Source of the DNA: Hymenobacter polaris
GTDB taxonomy: Bacteria; Bacteroidota; Bacteroidia; Cytophagales; Hymenobacteraceae
DNA: 64,000 nt
NCBI RefSeq assembly: GCF_012927305.1
Contig: NZ_JABBGH010000003.1
Coordinates: 1-64,000, forward strand
Direction of reading: 5' to 3'
Below, one piece after another: positions 3,962-33,042 of this stretch. Numbering within the stretch: the stretch's first letter is position 1; each line of letters starts with the position of its first letter. A model generated the notes under the pieces. The model was not told the DNA's origin. It saw nothing but the letters and a program-made list of their open reading frames with translations, and searched no databases. Made by a program: the position numbers and the translations under genes.

Positions 3962-4066
3962 GCCAAAAAGCGGTCATGCTGAGCTTGTCGAAGCATCTCT
4001 ATCGCGCCGCCTAGGGGTTGGTTCGGTAGGGATGCTTCGACAAGCTCAGCATGACCGCTTTTTGGC
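3962..4066. repeat. REPIN-like inverted doublet, family 1 (copy a)
   Basis: Two near-perfect inverted copies of a unit containing GTCATGCTGAGCTTGTCGAA flank a loop of about 30 bp. The arms extend to GCCAAAAAGCGG on both sides. It lies in the gap between the end of mcrC and the convergent small lipoprotein gene. Related copies are at 12825, 19034, 28263, 30632 and 32937. Confidence 0.9.
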
Positions 4067-16892: not shown

Positions 16893-16900
16893 AGAAAAGA

Positions 16901-17441
16901 AAAAACTCCTCTCCTTAGCCAAGGAGGGGACGTTAAAGCGCAGCTTTAACTGGGGTGGTTGAGGTCGTTTGCACCGTCAGAACTCACTAGCGCCGACAAA
17001 ATAGCGTGGGTTATCTCCTCAAAATTGCTCCAAACCAGCTTGTTTTCAAACCGAAGCACTCGAATGCCCAGCGCCCGCAGGTAGCTGTCGCGCTCCGCGT
17101 CGTGCGCTTGGCCTACCGCATCTGCATGGCCGGCACCATCCAGCTCCACGGCCAGCCGGGCGGCCGGGCAGTAAAAATCCAGCACGTATGGCCCCACCCC
17201 GTGCTGGCGGCGGAATTTATAGCCGCCAAGCTGGGCGCTTTTCAGTGCTCGCCACAGCGTGGCCTCGGCCGCCGTGCCGTTGGTGCGTAGGGCTTGGCGG
17301 AAGGTTTTTTGGTGCGGGAGGTTGTGGAGCTGGGCCATGTGGGAGGGTTGGCTTAGCGGGCGGGTCGTTCAACGAGGTCAACCACCCCAATTTTTGCTTC
17401 GCAAAAATGTCCCCTCCTCGTCTGAGGAGGGGAGTTTTTTT
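16901..17441. mobile_element. Putative DUF559 element A: nuclease gene between long inverted hairpin repeats
   Basis: The arms at 16901-16970 and 17371-17441 are inverted copies with the same architecture. From the outside in: an A6-7 run; a stem-loop (CTCCTCTCC/GGAGGGG left, CTCCCCTCC/GGAGGGG right); a second small stem-loop (GTTAAAGC-GCTTTAAC left, TTTTTGC-GCAAAAA right); then TGGGGTGGTTGA and a G(G/A)(T/C)CTCGTT-like end. The arms share layout and tail, but their stems differ by compensated changes, as expected of maintained hairpins. The only gene inside encodes a DUF559 nuclease. The element separates purM from purF in an otherwise tight cluster. Calling it mobile is inference. Confidence 0.6.
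16946..17338 (-). CDS. DUF559 (Vsr-like PD-(D/E)XK) endonuclease-like protein, element A
   Basis: 130 aa. DUF559 hallmarks: a TAAEATLWRAL helix (residues about 22-32), KFRRQHGVGPYVLDFYCP (about 41-58), RLAVELDGAGHAD (about 61-73) and LGIRVLRFEN (about 90-99). The E-x-D-G-x-x-H arrangement plus the preceding VLDFYC strand forms the putative active site shared with very-short-patch-repair nucleases. The last residues (NHPS) and the TAA stop are encoded by the element's left repeat arm, so gene and repeats form one unit. It is inserted between purF and purM on the same strand and presumably rides on their transcript. It may be a stand-alone homing-type nuclease; no substrate is known. Confidence 0.8.
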   Translation of the reverse strand: MAQLHNLPHQKTFRQALRTNGTAAEATLWRALKSAQLGGYKFRRQHGVGPYVLDFYCPAARLAVELDGAGHADAVGQAHDAERDSYLRALGIRVLRFENKLVWSNFEEITHAILSALVSSDGANDLNHPS

Positions 17442-17451
17442 CTGGCTTGGT

Positions 17452-18948
17452 TTAATGCTCGGTCGGTGCGGGCGCTTTCGCGCTCACCGACAACATCTTA
17501 TCGGGTTCGCGGTGGCTGAGGCGCTCCTCCTGGATGTGGCGTAGGTAGCGGGTCACGTCGCCGGTGGGGTACTGGCCGGTGAAGCAGGCGAAGCACGAGC
17601 CGCCGTGGCCGCGCTCCTCGGCGAAGAGGTCTTTCAGGTCCTGCAGGTCCTGGTAGATGACGCGGTCGGCCTCGATGTAGCGGCAGATTTCCTCTTCCGA
17701 GTAGTTGGCGGCAATCAGCTCGGTGCTCATGGCCATGTCGATGCCGTAGATGCAGGGCGACACGATGGGCGGGGCGCTGCTGATGAAGTACACCTCCGTG
17801 GCGCCGGCCTCGCGTAGCAGGCGCACGATGCGGCGCGAGGTAGTACCGCGCACGATGCTGTCGTCCACGACGGCCACTTTCTTGCCCTCCACGAAGGCGC
17901 GGATGGGGTTGAGCTTCTTCTTCACCACATCCTCGCGGCCGGCCTGGGTGGGCACGATGAACGAGCGGCCCATGTGGTTGTTCTTGACCATAGCGCGGCG
18001 GTAGGGCACGCCGATGGCTTCGGCCAGGCCCGAGGCCGAAAAGTAGCCGCTGCTGGGCACGTCAATCACCATGTCGGGCCGAAGGCCGGCATCGACCACC
18101 TTGCGGGCGATGATTTTGCCCAGGCGCACCCGCTCGCGGGCCACCAGCCGGCCGTGAATGGTGGAGTCCTCGCGGGCGAAGTAAATCTGCTCGAACACGC
18201 AGAAGGCCTTGGGCACCGTGTTCTGGTTCTTGTAGTGAACCTGGAAGTTGTTGTCGATAAACACCGCCTGTCCCGGCCCCACGTCGGCCAGAAACTCGAA
18301 GTCGAGGTAGTCGAAGCAGGTGCTCTCGGAGGCGAAGGCGTACACCGGGCCGTCGGGCGTGTTGCGGCGGCCCAGCACCAGCGGCCGAATCCCTAGGGGG
18401 TCGGTAAAGGCCAGCAGGCCGTGGCCGGCGATGATGGTGATGGTGGCATAGGCGCCCTTCACCAGCTCCTGGGTGGTTTCGACGGCATCGAAGATATCCA
18501 CCACCGAGATGCGGTCCAGGTCTTTCACGCGCAGCTCCGAGGCGAAGGTGTACATGATAAGCTCCAGGTCGTTGGTGGTTTTGGGCAGCACGTGGTACTT
18601 CTCGTGCAGCAGCTTGGCCACGTCGCGGAAGTTGATGACGTTGCCGTTGTGCACCATCGCCAGGCCGAAGGGGTAGCTGGTGGTGAAGGGCTGGGCCAGG
18701 TCGGAGTCGTTGGCGCCCTGCGTGGTGTAGCGCACGTGCCCGATGCCGGTGTTGCCGGTCAGCTTCTTCACCGCCTTGGGCCGGAACACGTCATTGACCA
18801 GCCCCTGCCCCTTGTGCAGGTGGAAGGCGTCGCCGTCGAAGGTGGCAATGCCGGCCGCGTCCTGCCCGCGGTGCTGCAAGGCGGTGAGGCCGATAATCAT
18901 GTCGCCCACCACGCGCTCGGGGCCGTGAAAACCTACAATGCCACACAT
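17452..18948 (-). CDS. purF: Amidophosphoribosyltransferase
   Basis: 498 aa. Catalyses the committed step of purine synthesis, PRPP plus glutamine to phosphoribosylamine. The ORF begins MCGIVGFHGP, giving the Cys2 nucleophile of class II glutamine amidotransferases (after Met removal). GHVRYTTQG is near residue 72, NGN near 101, and the PRPP-binding VVDDSIVRGTTSRRIV is near 365. CxxCF near the C-terminus suggests the Fe-S type seen in some PurF proteins, but I am not certain. A start two codons upstream is open but would bury Cys2, so 18948 is chosen. It sits between the family-1 doublet upstream and DUF559 element A downstream. Confidence 0.94.
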   Translation of the reverse strand: MCGIVGFHGPERVVGDMIIGLTALQHRGQDAAGIATFDGDAFHLHKGQGLVNDVFRPKAVKKLTGNTGIGHVRYTTQGANDSDLAQPFTTSYPFGLAMVHNGNVINFRDVAKLLHEKYHVLPKTTNDLELIMYTFASELRVKDLDRISVVDIFDAVETTQELVKGAYATITIIAGHGLLAFTDPLGIRPLVLGRRNTPDGPVYAFASESTCFDYLDFEFLADVGPGQAVFIDNNFQVHYKNQNTVPKAFCVFEQIYFAREDSTIHGRLVARERVRLGKIIARKVVDAGLRPDMVIDVPSSGYFSASGLAEAIGVPYRRAMVKNNHMGRSFIVPTQAGREDVVKKKLNPIRAFVEGKKVAVVDDSIVRGTTSRRIVRLLREAGATEVYFISSAPPIVSPCIYGIDMAMSTELIAANYSEEEICRYIEADRVIYQDLQDLKDLFAEERGHGGSCFACFTGQYPTGDVTRYLRHIQEERLSHREPDKMLSVSAKAPAPTEH

Positions 18949-19033
18949 AAGCAATTAACAATTAGCATTTAACAATTAACAGTTGGGCGGGAGGGCTGGG
19001 CGGAACGAGGTCAGCAGGACGTCGGTAAAAAGG

Positions 19034-19147
19034 CGGTCATGCTGAACTTGCCGAAGCACCTCTACCGCGTCGTTGGCTTGCGCCTTTCTTCGGTTGAACG
19101 GTTCGCTAGCGGCGTGGCAGAGATGCTTTGGCAAGCTCAGCATGACG
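19034..19147. repeat. REPIN-like inverted doublet, family 1 (copy c), supplies the purN stop
   Basis: Inverted copies of the GTCATGCTGA(A/G)CTTGCCGAAGC unit lie between purF and purN. The right arm encodes the last codons of purN: the final ACG TCA TGC TGA is the repeat's own sequence. Confidence 0.85.
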
Positions 19148-19871
19148 TTCCTTCGGGTTGGGCGGCGTTGCGTTTAATCAAGTCGGCCAGCGTTTCGGCG
19201 TAGAGCACGTGCTCGACGGCGAGGCCGCGGCGCTGCACTTCGGCCAGCGAGTCGGCCCCTTCCAAATTTACGACTTGCTGGGCCAGGATGGGGCCGGTAT
19301 CGAGTCCTTCGTCCACGAGGTGCACGGTTATTTTCGTTTCGGGCAGGTGGTTGTCGAAGGCCCACTCGTAGGCGTGCAGGCCCTGGTGCTGGTGCGTATC
19401 GGCGGGGTGGATATTGATAATGCGCCCGGCAAAGGCGCGCACGAACGTGGGCGAGAGCACGCGCATGTAGCCGGCCAGCACCACGTAGTCGGGCCGGTAG
19501 GCTTGCAGCGCGGCCACCACGTCCTGGTCAAACTCCGCCCGCTTGCGGCCTTTCGAGGGCAGGCTGGCGGTGGGCAGCCCTAGGGCCGCGGCAGCTTCGA
19601 GGCCGGGCGCGGCGGGGTCGTTGCTGAATACTACGGCCACCTCGGCCAGCCCGCGCAGGGGGCCAGTTTTGATGGCTTCAGCCAGGGCCAGCATGTTGGA
19701 GCCGCGGCCGGAAAGCAGGATGGCGAGTTTTGCCTCACCCCCCCGGCCCCCCTCTCCTTCAGAGAGGGGGGAGCCTGACGACTGCAACCATCCGCTGACG
19801 GTTGGCTCCCCCCTCTCTGAAGGAGAGGGGGGTCGGGGGGGTGAGGCATTGCGCATCTCGTCCATCATCAC
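19137..19871 (-). CDS. purN: Phosphoribosylglycinamide formyltransferase with repeat-encoded N-terminus
   Basis: 244 aa; transfers formyl from 10-formyl-THF to GAR. The family domain starts only at about residue 47 (AKLAILLSGRGSNM). It contains FSNDPAAPGLEAA, VVLAGYMRVLSP, the INIHPAD block with catalytic Asn/His and the VDEGLDTGPI block with catalytic Asp. Residues about 8-46 are Pro/Ser/Glu/Gly-rich and come from a 116-bp REPIN (19732-19847) read in frame. Starts at 19871, 19868 or 19865 all precede the insertion and lie 2-8 bp from the purD stop. A shorter product from an internal start after the repeat would lack an ATG, so the extension is probably translated. The last three residues lie in a second repeat. 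Confidence 0.9.
   Translation of the reverse strand: MMMDEMRNASPPRPPSPSERGEPTVSGWLQSSGSPLSEGEGGRGGEAKLAILLSGRGSNMLALAEAIKTGPLRGLAEVAVVFSNDPAAPGLEAAAALGLPTASLPSKGRKRAEFDQDVVAALQAYRPDYVVLAGYMRVLSPTFVRAFAGRIINIHPADTHQHQGLHAYEWAFDNHLPETKITVHLVDEGLDTGPILAQQVVNLEGADSLAEVQRRGLAVEHVLYAETLADLIKRNAAQPEGTSC
19732..19847. repeat. Empty REPIN, C-rich family 2 (copy C1), inside the 5' end of purN
   Basis: GCCTCACC(C)n-GG-CCCCCTCTCCTTCAGAGAGGGGG is followed by about 35 bp and the exact inverse. Each half is itself a stem-loop (CTCTCCTTCAGAGAG). It is the same unit as in DUF559 element B (22917-23504) and at 24346-24470, but contains no gene. Confidence 0.9.
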
Positions 19872-19873
19872 AC

Positions 19874-21166
19874 CTAATAAGCCTTGGTTTCGAGCAGCGG
19901 CGCGGGGCGCTGGCCGATGTCGGGGCGCACGTACTTATCCTGGAAGTTCACTTTCTCGGCTTCGGCGTAGGCCAGCTGCACGGCGGTGGGCAGGTCGGGG
20001 CCGTGGGCCACTACCACGGCCACCCGGCCGCTGGCCGTGAGTAGTTCGCCGGGCTGCTGGCCGGGCTGCACGCCACCCACAAATACGTGGGTGCCCTTGG
20101 TCTGCTGGCCGATGCCGTGGATAGGGAAGCCCGTCGGGAACTGCGCGGCGGGGTAGCCGCCCGAGGCCAGCACCACGCCCACGAAGGCACCGGGGCGCTG
20201 CCGCGTGATGGTCTGGGCCAGGCTGCCGTCGAGGGTGGCTTCAATCAGCTCCAGCAGGCTGCTTTCGAGGGCGGGCAGCAGCACCTCGGCCTCGGGGTCG
20301 CCGAGGCGCACGTTGTATTCGAGCAGCTTGGGGCCCTGGGGCGTCAGCATCACGCCGAAGTAGAGAAAGCCCACAAAATCGAACGGCTCGGCTTGCAGGC
20401 CGCGCAGGGTGGGGTCGATGATGTCCTGGCGGATGGCGGCCAGGGCGTTATCGTCCAGGAAGGGCACGGGGCAGTAGGCGCCCATGCCGCCGGTGTTGGG
20501 GCCCTGGTCGCCGGCCAGCAGCTGCTTGTGGTCCTGGGCGGGCGCCAGCAGGCGGATGCGGTTGCCGTCGGTGAGGCCGATGAGGCTGACCTCGGGGCCG
20601 GTGAGCTTTTCTTCGAGCAGGAAGCTGAACCAGCCCTCGTGCAGCTCGCGCAGCTCGGTGAGGGCGGCCGTGGCCTCGGCTACCGAGCTGCACACGTACA
20701 CGCCCTTGCCGGCGGCCAGGCCGTCGTACTTCACCACCACTTGGCCCCCCAGGGCTTCGGCCTGGGCCTGGGCCTCGGCAAACTGGTCGCTGCGGTAGCT
20801 CCAGGCGCGGGCCGTGGCGATGCCGTGGCGGCGCATAAAGTCCTTGCTCCACACCTTCGAGCTTTCGAGCGTGGCCGCCTGCCGCCGCGGCCCGAATACC
20901 CGGATGCCCGAGCCCAGGAAGTAGTCGGCCACGCCCGCCGCCAGCGGCGCCTCGGGCCCCACCACGATGAGCGTGCTGCCGTGCGCCTCGCAGAAGCTCT
21001 TGATAGCCGGAAAATCGGTGGCGCTGATGCCGGGCACGCTGCCGGCAATGCCGGCGTTGCCGGGCAGCACGTGCACGGTGGCGCCATCCTGGCGGAGCTT
21101 CCAGGCCAGGGCGTGCTCGCGGGCACCGGAGCCGAGGAGGACGAGTTGTTGCGTGTTGCCGCTCAC
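19874..21166 (-). CDS. purD: Phosphoribosylamine-glycine ligase (GAR synthetase)
   Basis: 430 aa ATP-grasp enzyme joining glycine to phosphoribosylamine. The N-domain shows VLLGSGAREHALAWKL at about residues 9-24. The ATP-grasp region includes GGQVVVKYDGLAAGKGVYV near 140 and LTGPEVSLIGLTDG near 190. GPNTGGMGAYCPVP near 225 and the LEYNVRLGDPEAEV metal/ATP block near 280 complete the signature. Its stop is 2 bp from the purN start region, so the two are co-translated. Length and order are normal for the family. Confidence 0.94.
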   Translation of the reverse strand: MSGNTQQLVLLGSGAREHALAWKLRQDGATVHVLPGNAGIAGSVPGISATDFPAIKSFCEAHGSTLIVVGPEAPLAAGVADYFLGSGIRVFGPRRQAATLESSKVWSKDFMRRHGIATARAWSYRSDQFAEAQAQAEALGGQVVVKYDGLAAGKGVYVCSSVAEATAALTELRELHEGWFSFLLEEKLTGPEVSLIGLTDGNRIRLLAPAQDHKQLLAGDQGPNTGGMGAYCPVPFLDDNALAAIRQDIIDPTLRGLQAEPFDFVGFLYFGVMLTPQGPKLLEYNVRLGDPEAEVLLPALESSLLELIEATLDGSLAQTITRQRPGAFVGVVLASGGYPAAQFPTGFPIHGIGQQTKGTHVFVGGVQPGQQPGELLTASGRVAVVVAHGPDLPTAVQLAYAEAEKVNFQDKYVRPDIGQRPAPLLETKAY

Positions 21167-21181
21167 GATACGAAAGAAACC

Positions 21182-21928
21182 TTAGCTAAAATCTTGAATA
21201 AAAGCGATTAACCCATCGCGAAAAGAGAACCGCGAGCGGCCCGAGAACTGCAGGGTCGTACCGGCCTTCACCCCGTTGGGCAGGTCGGTAGCCGTCACGG
21301 CGTGGTAGTCGATGGCCGCCTCCACCTGCTCCGCCTGCCACTGCAAATCCGTAATGCGCTGCGTGCGCTCCGTGAACCACGCGGCGGCCCGAATGGCCTG
21401 GCTCTCAAACGCCTCCTTGCTGTCCAGCCGCACCGTTACGTCGCCGTTGGTGGAGTGCTCGAACCGCACGTCGGGTTGCAGGCAGGCCAGCATGCCGGGC
21501 ACGTCGAAGCGGTTGTACGCCTCAATGTAGCTCTCTATCAGTAACTTGGCTTGCGCTGCGTCCATCGGGTAAAGGGACTGAACATCCATCCGCGCAATCA
21601 GTCCATCGCGCAAGTGGTAGATGTGCTGCACCGTCGTATCCAGGAGCAGCGTGCCGGCCAGGTCGTGCACTACCTGATGTACTGTGACGGCCACGCGGCC
21701 ATCGGGCAGCAGCTCGAAGCCGGTGGGGTCTACGTGCGGGTCGATTCCACTCCACTGCTGGGCCCAGTACGCCCGCACGGCGGCGGGGCCCTGCACGTAG
21801 CCACCCAGGAAGGCCTTGGGCCACTGCACATCGGGCTGCATCAAGGCCAGCACGGCTTCGGTATCGCGGGCGTTGAAGCCTTGGTACATCCGCGTTAGCA
21901 AGTCAGTCGTGGCTTGGTTGAGTTGCAT
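21182..21928 (-). CDS. Tandem SnoaL-like (NTF2-fold) protein in the pur cluster
   Basis: 248 aa, two SnoaL-like domains in series: residues about 5-115 (start LLTRMYQGFNARDTEAVLALMQPDV) and about 128-245 (start LIESYIEAYNRFDVPGMLACLQPDV). The halves align at the helix-loop '(Y/F)NxxDxxxxLxxxxPDVxx' motif. No catalytic set is obvious in either. It is flanked by purC and purD with short gaps (15 and 32 bp), so it belongs to the operon. A link to purine or C1 metabolism is only suggested by position. Confidence 0.8.
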   Translation of the reverse strand: MQLNQATTDLLTRMYQGFNARDTEAVLALMQPDVQWPKAFLGGYVQGPAAVRAYWAQQWSGIDPHVDPTGFELLPDGRVAVTVHQVVHDLAGTLLLDTTVQHIYHLRDGLIARMDVQSLYPMDAAQAKLLIESYIEAYNRFDVPGMLACLQPDVRFEHSTNGDVTVRLDSKEAFESQAIRAAAWFTERTQRITDLQWQAEQVEAAIDYHAVTATDLPNGVKAGTTLQFSGRSRFSFRDGLIAFIQDFS

Positions 21929-21960
21929 GGGGCACAGGAGAGTACTGAGGTGGCGCTGAC

Positions 21961-22884
21961 TTAGGAGGCGGACAGCAGCCCAGCTTGCACCAGGTTATGG
22001 GTCAGGCGTTCGGTTACGTCCCCGGTTTCGTCGGCTGTGGGCAGCGGGTGGCCCACGATACGCGCGTAGATGTCGAGGTAGCGGTTGACTGCTTCCTGGG
22101 TTACCTCGGGCGTGAGGGCCCTAGGGTACTTGCCGTCCACCTTGTGGGCAATCAGCCACTGGCGGATGTACTCCTTGTCCATCTGCTCGGCGCCTTCGGG
22201 GTTGCGGGCGTAGTCTTCGGCGCTCCAAAAGCGCGACGAGTCAGGCGTGTGGATTTCGTCAATCAAAATCAGCTCGCCGTTGAGCAGGCCGAACTCGTAC
22301 TTGGTATCGACCAGGATGATGCCCTTCTCGCGCAGCAGGTCGGAGCCTAACTTAAACAGGGCTAGCGATTTCTCAGCCATCTGCTCGTACAGCTCGCGGC
22401 TCACCCAGCCTTCGCTGACTAGGTTACTAGGGGTGATTTCGCGGTCTGACTCCTCCTTGGTGGTTGGCGTCACGATGGGCGCCGGAAACTGCTGGTGCTT
22501 GGTGATGCCGTCGGGCACGGTCACACCCGAAAACGTGCGCTGGCCCTGCTGATAGCCGCGCAGCATCGAGCCGGTGAGGTAGTGGCGCACCACCATCTCC
22601 ACCTTGATGGGCTGCGCCTCCTTCACCAGCGTGGCATTGACATCCACCAGTTTCACCACGTGGTTGGGGATGATGCCGCGGGTCTGCTCAAACCAGAAGT
22701 TAGCCAGCCCGTTGAGCACCGCACCCTTGTGCGGAATCGCGGTTTCGAGCACGCTATCGAAGGCTGAGAGGCGGTCGGTGACGACGATGAGGCGGGTGGT
22801 ATCGTCGATGCGGTAGCTGTCGCGGACTTTGCCGCGGTGCAACAGCTGAAGCTGGGGGGTAGCAAAGTGCGGGAGGGTGTTCAT
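21961..22884 (-). CDS. purC: Phosphoribosylaminoimidazole-succinocarboxamide synthase
   Basis: 307 aa. Joins aspartate to CAIR using ATP. It is the longer variant of SAICAR synthetase. Hallmarks are LLHRGKVRDSY near residue 15, VVTDRLSAFDSVL near 35, VEMVVRHYLTGSML near 95, KGIILVDTKYEFGL near 190 and LIDEIHTPDSSRFW near 212. Immediately upstream (22917) begins DUF559 element B, which therefore separates purC from purQ. Confidence 0.94.
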   Translation of the reverse strand: MNTLPHFATPQLQLLHRGKVRDSYRIDDTTRLIVVTDRLSAFDSVLETAIPHKGAVLNGLANFWFEQTRGIIPNHVVKLVDVNATLVKEAQPIKVEMVVRHYLTGSMLRGYQQGQRTFSGVTVPDGITKHQQFPAPIVTPTTKEESDREITPSNLVSEGWVSRELYEQMAEKSLALFKLGSDLLREKGIILVDTKYEFGLLNGELILIDEIHTPDSSRFWSAEDYARNPEGAEQMDKEYIRQWLIAHKVDGKYPRALTPEVTQEAVNRYLDIYARIVGHPLPTADETGDVTERLTHNLVQAGLLSAS

Positions 22885-22916
22885 AACTAGTGGTTGGCTG
22901 GCGGCGCGGGTGGTGG

Positions 22917-23504
22917 CCTCACCCCCCGGCCCCCTCTCCTTCAGAGAGGGGGATCCTGACGTTGGTAGTTGTGGTGAGTTAGTTCTTTTGACCTGCCTTG
23001 TTCGGTTGTGCGGCTTGCCGGATAGCTTTTAGCACTTCCGGCAAATGATTGTGTACTTCCTCGTTGGAGAAGCGAAGCAGTTGGTAACCTTGGCTTTCCA
23101 GCTCGTGCGTGCGCCCTTGGTCATATTCAGCCTGTTCGGCGTCTAAATGCATCCCACCGTCTACTTCCACTATCAAGCTGTGTTCCAAGCAAATAAAGTC
23201 GACAATAAAATGCTCAACGGCGTGCTGCCGCCGAAACTTCAGGCCATCCAATTGCCGATTGCGCAGCGCCTGCCATAATTGATTCTCCGCCGCAGTTGGC
23301 TCTTTGCGCATCTGCTGCCCAAACTGCTTGTGCGTTTTAAACCAGCTTTTCTTATCAGCTGTCAGATGCAATGGCACCGCGCCCGCCCGCCGATAGTCAG
23401 CGGCACCCTCCTCCACCAAAAACTCCTCCTGCTCGCTACCACTCTCACCATACGCGCCGCCAAGGCTCTCCCTCTCTGAAGGAGAGGGGGCCGGGGGGTG
23501 AGGC
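22917..23504. mobile_element. Putative DUF559 element B: nuclease domain between family-2 REPs, fused to purQ
   Basis: The left arm (22917-22960) and right arm (23464-23504) are inverted copies of the family-2 unit (CCTCACCCCCCGGCCCCCTC plus stem-loop CTCTCCTTCAGAGAG). The 588-bp interval carries one DUF559 domain on the minus strand, like element A (541 bp). The same arms occur as empty doublets at 19732 and 24346, each within about 4 kb. The right arm is read in frame by the end of purQ. Mobility is inference. Confidence 0.65.
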
Positions 23505-24328
23505 AACGACGTAAGGTGCTTCACAATGTTCCGAAACAGCGCCAGCCCATCCCCCTCTTCCTTCAATTCCCCCAGCCGCTTACGCCGCCCCCAATCGGGG
23601 TGGTTGCACCCCGCCAGAAACGCCTCTGGGTGCGGCATTAGTCCAAAAATCTGCCCCGTCGGGTCACACAGCCCCGCACAATTCAAATCCGCGCCGTTGG
23701 GGTTGAGGGGATACGTGCCCGTTTCCTGGTCGTCGCCATCGGCGTAAGCCAGGCAGTTGAGCCCTAGGGCTACAATCCGTTCGCGGGTCGCCGCGTCGGG
23801 CACCACCAAGCGGCCCTCGCCGTGGCGCACGGGCACCTCGAACGAGGTGAGGCCGCGCAGGAAGGGCGTTTGCGAAGCGGGGTTCACTTTCAGGCGCACC
23901 CAGCGGTCCTCGTAGCGGCCCGAGGCGTTATGGGTCAGCGTCACCTCGGGCTCGAAGTTGCCCCCTAGGTTGGGCAGCAGCCCCAGCTTCACCAGCACCT
24001 GAAAGCCGTTGCAGATGCCGAGCACGAACTTGCCGGCGGCCACGAACTCGCGGATGTCGGAAAGCAGCGTGCGGCCGGCGGCGTCGGTTTGGCGGTAACG
24101 CAGCTTGTTGGCCAGCACCACGCCCGAGCCCAGGTCGTCACCGAAGGAGAAGCCGCCGGGGAAGTTGAGGATGTCGAAGTCATGGATGCTCACCCGGCCG
24201 TGCAGCACTTCGTTGAGGTGCACGATGGTGGGCGCGCCGCCCGCCAGGCGGTAAGCCGCGGCCATCTCCTCTTCGCAGTTGATGCCGAAGCCGGTCAGGA
24301 TAAGCGCTTTGGGTGCTTGATTCGTCAT
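22979..24328 (-). CDS. purQ: FGAM synthase glutaminase subunit PurQ fused through a REP to a DUF559 domain
   Basis: 449 aa continuous frame. Residues 1-272 are PurQ: ALILTGFGINCEEEM near the start, class I amidotransferase nucleophile Cys106 in GICNGF, and His233/Glu235 in MPHPE. It supplies ammonia to PurL for FGAM formation. Residues about 273-291 (HPPAPSPSERES) are the translated REP. Residues 292-326 are a linker. Residues about 327-437 are a DUF559 nuclease-like domain (TAAENQLWQALRNRQL, KFRRQHAVEHFIVDFICL, LIVEVDGGMHLD, YQLLRFSNEEV). A TTG/GTG pair preceded by AGGAGGA at about 23421 could permit separate translation of the nuclease. Otherwise a bifunctional fusion is made. The ATG at 24326-24328 is chosen over an upstream in-frame start. 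Confidence 0.85.
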   Translation of the reverse strand: MTNQAPKALILTGFGINCEEEMAAAYRLAGGAPTIVHLNEVLHGRVSIHDFDILNFPGGFSFGDDLGSGVVLANKLRYRQTDAAGRTLLSDIREFVAAGKFVLGICNGFQVLVKLGLLPNLGGNFEPEVTLTHNASGRYEDRWVRLKVNPASQTPFLRGLTSFEVPVRHGEGRLVVPDAATRERIVALGLNCLAYADGDDQETGTYPLNPNGADLNCAGLCDPTGQIFGLMPHPEAFLAGCNHPDWGRRKRLGELKEEGDGLALFRNIVKHLTSLPHPPAPSPSERESLGGAYGESGSEQEEFLVEEGAADYRRAGAVPLHLTADKKSWFKTHKQFGQQMRKEPTAAENQLWQALRNRQLDGLKFRRQHAVEHFIVDFICLEHSLIVEVDGGMHLDAEQAEYDQGRTHELESQGYQLLRFSNEEVHNHLPEVLKAIRQAAQPNKAGQKN

Positions 24329-24345
24329 GGTTGGCTGACGTCGTG

Positions 24346-24470
24346 GCCTCACCCCCCGGCCCCCTCTCCTTCAGAGAGGGGGAGCCTTGGCGGCGCGGCT
24401 TCTTAGTGCTTACTTATAAATAATCGTCCAGCTCCCCCTCTCTGAAGGAGAGGGGGCCGGGGGGTGAGGC
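24346..24470. repeat. Empty REPIN, family 2 (copy C2), across the purL/purQ junction
   Basis: Inverted GCCTCACCCCCCGGCC... units with about 45 bp between them. The purL stop (24414) and its last 10-15 codons lie inside; purQ starts 18 bp beyond its left end. Same family as copies at 19732 and 22917/23464. Confidence 0.9.
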
Positions 24471-30631: not shown

Positions 30632-30729
30632 AGTAGAACGTCATGCTGAGCGCAGCCGAAGCATCTCTACTGCATCGTTGGACGGCGTGGTAGAGATGCT
30701 TCGGCTGCGCTCAGCATGACGTTCTACTA
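30632..30729. repeat. REPIN-like inverted doublet, family 1 (copy e)
   Basis: AGTAGAACGTCATGCTGAGC...GAAGCATCTCTAC and its almost perfect inverse (arms about 40 bp, loop about 15 bp), between the nuclease promoter and the Uma2 stop. Confidence 0.9.
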
Positions 30730-32936: not shown

Positions 32937-33042
32937 GCACGTCATGCTGAGCTTGTCGAAGCATCTCTACCGCGCAGCTAGCCCCTAACGGTAGGGGTTA
33001 CTTGCGCGGTAGAGATGCTTCGGCAGGCTCAGCATGACGTGC
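32937..33042. repeat. REPIN-like inverted doublet, family 1 (copy f)
   Basis: GCACGTCATGCTGAGCTTGT and its inverse with an inner palindrome (CCCCTAACGGTAGGGG) in the loop. It lies downstream of the M13 peptidase gene. Confidence 0.9.

Follow-up and report, generated by a model that had tools for sequence, protein, structure and literature searches.

We analyzed a 64,000-nt stretch of the genome of Hymenobacter polaris (contig NZ_JABBGH010000003.1, positions 1 to 64,000; hereafter the window), which carries two small elements, A and B, each consisting of a DUF559 (domain of unknown function 559) nuclease gene between two inverted hairpin arms. These elements probably represent a compact mobile unit, in which the nuclease, a relative of homing endonucleases, and its two arms are accompanied by matching empty doublets (inverted pairs of arms with no gene). 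Across the genus Hymenobacter, exchange at a fixed site involves the nuclease and both of its arms together, as a single unit. Both the class and the subtype of the arms track the nuclease instead of the host, and the empty doublets match the resident nuclease. A previous prediction, made from the sequence of the window alone (hereafter the original prediction), had read these DUF559 genes in repeat doublets as a possible mobile system. Our results support that reading and, as was already the case there, movement by the nuclease is something we infer.

Two nuclease-bearing elements in the purine cluster

Both elements are set in the purine cluster, A between purM and purF and B at the 3' end of purQ, before purC (Table 1). 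The arms, the DUF559 domains and two nearby empty doublets were all located where they had been predicted. The arms of element A are 70 nt each, inverted and 79% complementary, and those of element B are 48 nt each, inverted and 92% complementary. Little space is left between the arms for anything beyond the nuclease gene, and no transposase or integrase domain was found in either element, the only domains being DUF559 and the overlapping MTES_1575. As anticipated, the last codons and the stop of the element A nuclease gene (16946-17338, minus strand) fall inside the arm at 16900-16969. In element B, the nuclease frame continues without a stop across the upstream arm into purQ, so that the open reading frame (ORF) at 22979-24352 on the minus strand reads PurQ-arm-DUF559. 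The original prediction had also given the two elements the same plan, which holds in that arms surround DUF559 in both, but the arms belong to two superfamilies. Type-2 arms (element B) have a CCTCACCCC tail outside a CCCTCTC-loop-GAGAGGG hairpin, whereas type-A arms (element A) have the hairpin outside and a GGGGTGGTTGA tail inside. The conserved tails are CCTCACCCC-like and GGGGTGGTTGA-like, not GTAG or CGTC; CTAG was found beside type-A hairpins.

At E <= 1e-3, nucleases A and B are the two DUF559 matches in the window genome (5.59 Mb, 8 contigs, 99.88% complete), which also carries 41 type-2 and 20 type-A hairpins. With up to two mismatches, the core of the element B hairpin occurs at 27 genome sites versus none for a reversed control, and the hairpin pairs are thus not due to chance. 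These sites form 11 short inverted pairs, one long pair (element B) and three single arms. Both empty doublets of the window are among the 11 short pairs, in agreement with the claim that they share the arms of element B. A search for Y1 transposases (PF01797), the type of the repetitive extragenic palindromic (REP)-associated tyrosine transposases (RAYTs), gave no match at E <= 1e-3 in the window genome. The system had been proposed to be RAYT-independent, which stands for the window genome and is limited to it, because 83 of the 120 Hymenobacter genomes have a Y1_Tnp match and those carry more arms.

Table 1. Coordinates of the elements, empty doublets and related features in the window.
Feature	Position	Strand	Description
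Element A (type-A arms)	16900..17440		purM/purF gap; Smith-Waterman arm score 25
Element A left arm	16900..16969		Hairpin outside, GGGGTGGTTGA tail inside; contains last codons and stop of nuclease gene
DUF559 PD-(D/E)XK nuclease A, 130 aa	16946..17338	-	Pfam PF04480 E = 9.6e-33; structure model pLDDT 81.7
Element A right arm	17371..17440		
Element B (type-2 arms)	22910..23510		purQ 3' end, before purC; filled and empty relatives exist
Element B arm, purC side	22910..22957		Core recurs elsewhere in genome
DUF559 domain of nuclease B	23012..23332	-	Pfam DUF559 E = 7.1e-36
Element B arm, purQ side	23463..23510		Translated in frame
PurQ-arm-DUF559 ORF	22979..24328 (ATG at 24328); frame 22979-24352	-	
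Empty type-2 doublet	24346..24470		purL 3' end; purL frame terminates in its arm; 40-nt arms, 100% complementary
Empty type-2 doublet	19731..19848		In frame, 5' part of purN ORF; 45-nt arms, 98% complementary
Third-family doublet	19036..19146		GIY-YIG-associated, not DUF559

Inverted arms at nuclease loci in Hymenobacter and other phyla

DUF559 was detected in 103 of the 120 genomes of the genus, with 241 matches and 1 to 6 copies per carrying genome, and we read the best 142 of these 241 matches by score, including the two from the window. At the first 80 loci, an inverted repeat of score >=20 brackets DUF559 in 73 cases versus 2 of 800 control positions taken from these loci. Bracketing arms were found at 134 of the 142 loci at score 16 and at 128 at score 20, as would be expected if DUF559 genes generally carry matching arms. 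Regular expressions for the arms overlook degenerate ones, element A of the window among them, and show no arm at 10 of the 142 loci, 9 of which are labeled type A or unclassified by local alignment. The same expression detected 49 short and 42 gene-length type-2 doublets within 679 kb around 82 DUF559 genes. DUF559 lay inside all 42 gene-length doublets, a count that is no genome-wide census because the examined loci were centred on DUF559. A simple doublet of two arms around every DUF559 gene was rejected as a general rule: the order arm-gene-arm, with tails outward, was observed at 56 loci and the order doublet-gene-arm at 24.

Counting either shared flank, the 142 loci fall into 28 contexts, the largest with 28 and 26 loci. 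Several contexts are common to 12 to 28 genomes, suggesting that element positions are long-lived or preferred, and one context contains both type-A and type-2 elements. Context 1 (L103, L344, L110, L128) is a hot spot beside one gene, with type-A elements in some genomes and type-2 elements in others, and includes nested doublets with type A within outer type-2 arms. Short extra hairpins (GCTTGATGCGC-like) interrupt one arm in L105, L123 and L131, and the arms of L081 are repeated.

On the nuclease tree, arm class changes once over 131 of the 142 rows (8 rows without arms and 3 unclassified were omitted, and the labels of L308, L138 and window A were set by hand), and class and clade never part. 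A fully supported set of 33 rows is composed of 31 type-A rows and two unclassified ones (type A by eye), while the rows closest to window nuclease B (L088, L062 and L060) all have the CTTCAG hairpin in common with it. To compare hairpins and nucleases between genomes, we used 52 of the 120, namely 35 with all DUF559 genes read and 17 without a match. The median number of type-A hairpins per genome was 32 with a clade-A nuclease versus 1 without (p 1e-7), and that of type-2 hairpins was 27.5 with a clade-2 nuclease versus 6 without (p 2e-4). Cross comparisons of each arm class with the other nuclease clade gave p 0.09 and 0.04. Furthermore, all seven genomes whose nuclease bears the AAAAGGG hairpin contained it, versus 5 of the 113 others. 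The CTTCAG hairpin was present in all four carriers, or three of four when only copies beyond the element's own arms were counted. The suggestion that empty doublets share the arms of a resident nuclease was thus borne out in arm class and, for the two hairpins tested, also in subtype.

The cross-phylum sample consisted of the best 80 loci of a genome scan, of which 74 were tested and six left out as incomplete; this sample and the 142 loci overlap in 11 Hymenobacter loci. Inverted arms were present at 16 of the 19 Hymenobacter loci of this sample (control 0/190). Outside the genus, they were found at 28 of 55 DUF559 loci versus 1 of 550 controls at score 16, and at 20 versus 0 at score 20. 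The CCTCACCCC-CCCCTCTCC plan was observed in Chloroflexota, a cyanobacterium, an Ignavibacteria record and several Bacteroidota, and with an inward tail in a gammaproteobacterial record, while different hairpins flank some other loci, for example in Flavobacterium. The arm pattern was detected in all 14 genomes picked for such flanking arms (1 to 263 sites, own arms counted) and in 6 of 16 others.

A third doublet family, seen at purF-purM (GTCATGCTGAGC / GTCATCCTGAGC / GTCATTGCGAGC), accompanies another nuclease, GIY-YIG. At the 30 GIY-YIG loci of the genus among the matches listed (L345-L374), inverted arms at score 16 were present in 27 (control 1/232), third-family cores in all 30 and type-2 or type-A arms in none. 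Conversely, no third-family core was found within 420 nt of any of the 142 DUF559 loci. The 30 loci are not independent sites because they represent only eight contexts, one of them with 18 loci. Given that GC-rich hairpins make up the arms and lie close to gene ends, one could ask whether they arose by chance or are ordinary terminators adjoining nuclease genes. We give this explanation practically no weight: it is excluded by the position controls and the reversed-pattern control given above, and the mutually exclusive distribution of third-family cores and DUF559 arms also stands against it.

Exchange at purQ and insertion into host genes

Element-free sites exist at both junctions of the window. 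At purQ, 8 of 30 loci were filled and 22 were not. The PurQ tree includes 51 of the 118 purQ genomes, 29 of them filled, and the filled state is over-represented in it because further filled genomes were added to the 30 nearest ones. On this tree, the filled or empty state changes eight times, with at least seven gains or losses on supported branches. The six arm subtypes at 28 filled purQ loci require at least five changes; the nuclease tree needs exactly these five, whereas the PurQ tree needs 11. Several pairs of genomes with nearly identical PurQ proteins have distant nucleases and differ in hairpin subtype: G035/G058 (PurQ 96%, nuclease 47% identity), G079/G058 (96%, 55%), G021/G062 (94%, 49%) and G036/G081 (98%, 58%). 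In G079/G035 (99%, 56%) the hairpin label is the same and the tails differ, and the converse situation is found in G035/G005 (PurQ 85%, nuclease 87%). Therefore, the nuclease and its arms change together against the host background. In 76 of 95 type-2 elements, and in 24 of 27 at purQ, no candidate partner matched the left arm better than its own right arm.

Among 30 purF-purM loci, DUF559 was found in the window genome alone. In two others purM is absent nearby. Of the remaining 27, 8 have type-2 doublets, 11 have doublets of the third family, one has a type-A doublet, one a short remnant and 6 other sequence, so this junction has no single empty form. The original prediction had named two findings that would speak against it, DUF559 at these loci in all relatives with non-repetitive flanks and arms unlinked to DUF559; we observed neither.

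No target-site duplication was visible in the filled/empty purQ pairs or in the alignments of short doublets with empty sites, a small sample with approximately 80-90% identity. Some alignments show target replacement, the element occupying the place of a variable PurQ tail and intergenic DNA. At the purQ end of L251, the empty site reads GTTGCCGCAAC, and the element of its filled relative L299 starts with GTTGCC and ends with GGCAA. The empty-site sequence is possibly an excision scar or a palindromic target.

In 56 of 134 elements, no stop closes the nuclease frame within the upstream arm, and in 40 elements this frame continues for at least 300 nt past the arm; at purQ, the nuclease is in frame in 27 of 28 elements. 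Seven elements are open on both sides, inside AddA/RecB-like and AddB-like genes (family scores under the curated cut-offs), 11 run into the start of RecQ, and others follow MetH. The in-frame hosts include AddA-like (L104, L107, L115, L125, L303), AddB-like (L301, L321, L072) and RecQ (L136, L293 and others) genes. Because the arms are translatable, elements can settle in gene ends or within genes, the host protein not being stopped. They would also account for odd annotations, such as PurQ, MetH, RecQ, AddA-like and AddB-like proteins with an in-frame nuclease domain. Three of these five host genes (AddA-like, AddB-like and RecQ) have a role in DNA break repair, and PMC3733652 likewise describes REPs within repair genes, recBCD and uvrD among them, making a link between the elements and repair directly testable.

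Proposed mechanism and competing explanations

DUF559 genes often carry a Vsr-like annotation. The AlphaFold2 model of nuclease A, with a predicted local distance difference test (pLDDT) score of 81.7 and a predicted template modeling (pTM) score of 0.74, and the family profile point to the same solved structures as the nearest. The closest one is NGO0050, a DUF559 protein (profile E 4.8e-33, Foldseek 7.6e-8), and the closest solved enzyme with a described function is the catalytic domain of the homing endonuclease I-Bth0305I (profile E 1.3e-6, Foldseek 1e-4), whose group is called the EDxHD family. Lower matches include two mitoribosomal proteins (4.1e-4 and 2.2e-3), PvuRts1I (0.012) and the mismatch endonuclease Vsr, which shares the nuclease fold weakly (Foldseek E 0.022) and much less closely than I-Bth0305I. 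The candidate active-site residues H37, D45, E56, D58 and H62 are conserved in 141-142 of 142 domains, and an internal stop interrupts four of the 142. Purifying selection acts on the nuclease, as indicated by a median ratio of nonsynonymous to synonymous substitution rates (dN/dS) of 0.09 over 234 non-independent pairs. A role in defence was set aside, as PADLOC (DpdF 2.2e-6, homing endonuclease model 1.1e-4) and PHROG gave only weak matches.

We propose that the nuclease would recognize its own arm class, perhaps as a hairpin, and cut at or near the arms or at a target. Break repair could then copy the whole element to a new place, without target-site duplication, and the empty doublets would be served in trans by the nuclease and copied likewise. 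Such break-and-copy spread fits because the nuclease is akin to a homing endonuclease, and the exchange at purQ is compatible with it.

Several observations weigh against this proposal. To begin with, we infer cutting, binding and movement by the nuclease from sequence comparison. At score 16, no arms were detectable at 8 of the 142 loci in the genus and at 27 of the 55 outside it. The doublet-gene-arm order is far from rare beside the arm-gene-arm order (24 versus 56 loci), and positions are often common to many species. The CTTCAG hairpin is present in 14 of 116 non-carriers, and one of its four carriers has it solely in its own element. Three genomes without a DUF559 match are rich in type-2 hairpins (104 in G039, 61 in G103 and 39 in G018); perhaps they lost the nuclease, or another enzyme serves the hairpins. 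Finally, a nuclease-only account does not predict that Y1-bearing genomes have more arms (median 55 versus 30, p 0.003); DUF559 carriers likewise differ in arm number (median 48 versus 15, p 0.0002).

The last two points, that is, the arm-rich genomes without DUF559 and the excess of arms in the 83 genomes with a Y1_Tnp match, would be expected if DUF559 were cargo in doublets moved by another enzyme, either a RAYT/IS200-type transposase or an unrecognized recombinase. We consider this rather unlikely. The window genome maintains both of its hairpin types without a Y1_Tnp match, and the six best-scoring Y1 loci had no such arms, longer RAYT-like loci being outside this set. Within the DUF559-centred 679 kb, no other gene occupied a gene-length type-2 doublet. 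Moreover, a passenger need not match its arms, yet arm class and nuclease clade are inseparable on the tree and the subtype shifts with the nuclease at purQ.

It is also conceivable that the nuclease gene homes into pre-existing doublets spread by other means, the doublet being a landing site and not a vehicle. This would explain the doublet-gene-arm order, seen at the 24 type-2 and at least six type-A loci, the nested elements at the hot spot, and the occupation of the purF-purM junction by different doublet families. It does not sit well with the single arm on each side at most type-2 loci (56), with the joint exchange of nuclease and both arms between close relatives at purQ, or with short doublets sharing the hairpin subtype of the resident nuclease, and we find it quite improbable. 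We attach very little probability to a third alternative, in which DUF559 would be a stable repair or defence gene, its arms would serve expression or RNA stability, and nothing would move now. The positions common to 12 to 28 genomes, the strong purifying selection and the weak PADLOC matches agree with such a role, as does VsrA, a DUF559 protein on which the DNA damage response of a Caulobacter mutant depends according to PMC12907096; this finding fits our proposal too. Repeated gain and loss at purQ, the replacement of one nuclease by an unlike one in near relatives, and the matching empty copies argue against it.

Such a spread of the elements by their own nuclease would recall several known systems. 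As outlined in PMC3116915, REPIN/RAYT systems are tailed hairpin doublets tied to one enzyme with matching subtypes. The DUF559 elements resemble them in that a genome contains many inverted doublets made up of short hairpins with tails, and in that the subtype of one linked enzyme matches that of the repeat. Unlike in REPIN/RAYT systems, the enzyme is a PD-(D/E)XK nuclease inside the doublet and not a tyrosine HUH (Y1) transposase, the tails are CCTCACCCC or GGGGTGGTTGA instead of GTAG or CGTC, and DUF559 has 1 to 6 copies per carrying genome, exchanged at fixed sites, whereas RAYTs are described as single-copy. We therefore do not file the DUF559 doublets under REPIN/RAYT, since two defining features (transposase and tail) fail despite the similar working. 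Homing endonucleases of the I-Bth0305I type share the nuclease fold, and their break-and-copy spread fits the exchange at purQ, but DUF559 has palindromic arms and many empty doublets. We saw no intron or intein around a DUF559 gene, no dedicated intron search having been run, and did see in-frame inserts in host genes. A gene-bearing element with short empty ones that have the same ends is also typical of autonomous insertion sequences and their miniature inverted-repeat transposable elements (MITEs), which differ from the present case by a transposase or integrase domain; no target-site duplication was seen in our inspected pairs. Rickettsia palindromic elements and in-gene REPs are likewise translated in frame with the host frame kept open, although the in-frame insert described here can bear a whole nuclease domain.

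Our literature search of open-licence PMC papers found no earlier description of a nuclease-in-doublet system. For some families of palindromic repeats no mobilizing enzyme is known, as PMC3733652 states for CGTC repeats. If DUF559 and GIY-YIG nucleases each spread their own doublets, they would be the missing enzymes for some widespread palindromic repeats without a RAYT. If a nuclease domain of approximately 110 residues suffices, the elements would be very small for mobile units that carry their own means of spread, and a testable activity could be assigned to a domain of unknown function. Whether nuclease-driven palindromic elements form a general class across phyla, in which DUF559 and GIY-YIG, two unrelated folds, would each spread their own doublets, gene-bearing and empty, by break-and-copy, appears to us evenly balanced. 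Of note, the window contains several third-family doublets, with cores at 3973-4055, 30640-30720 and 32941-33038 in addition to the one in Table 1.

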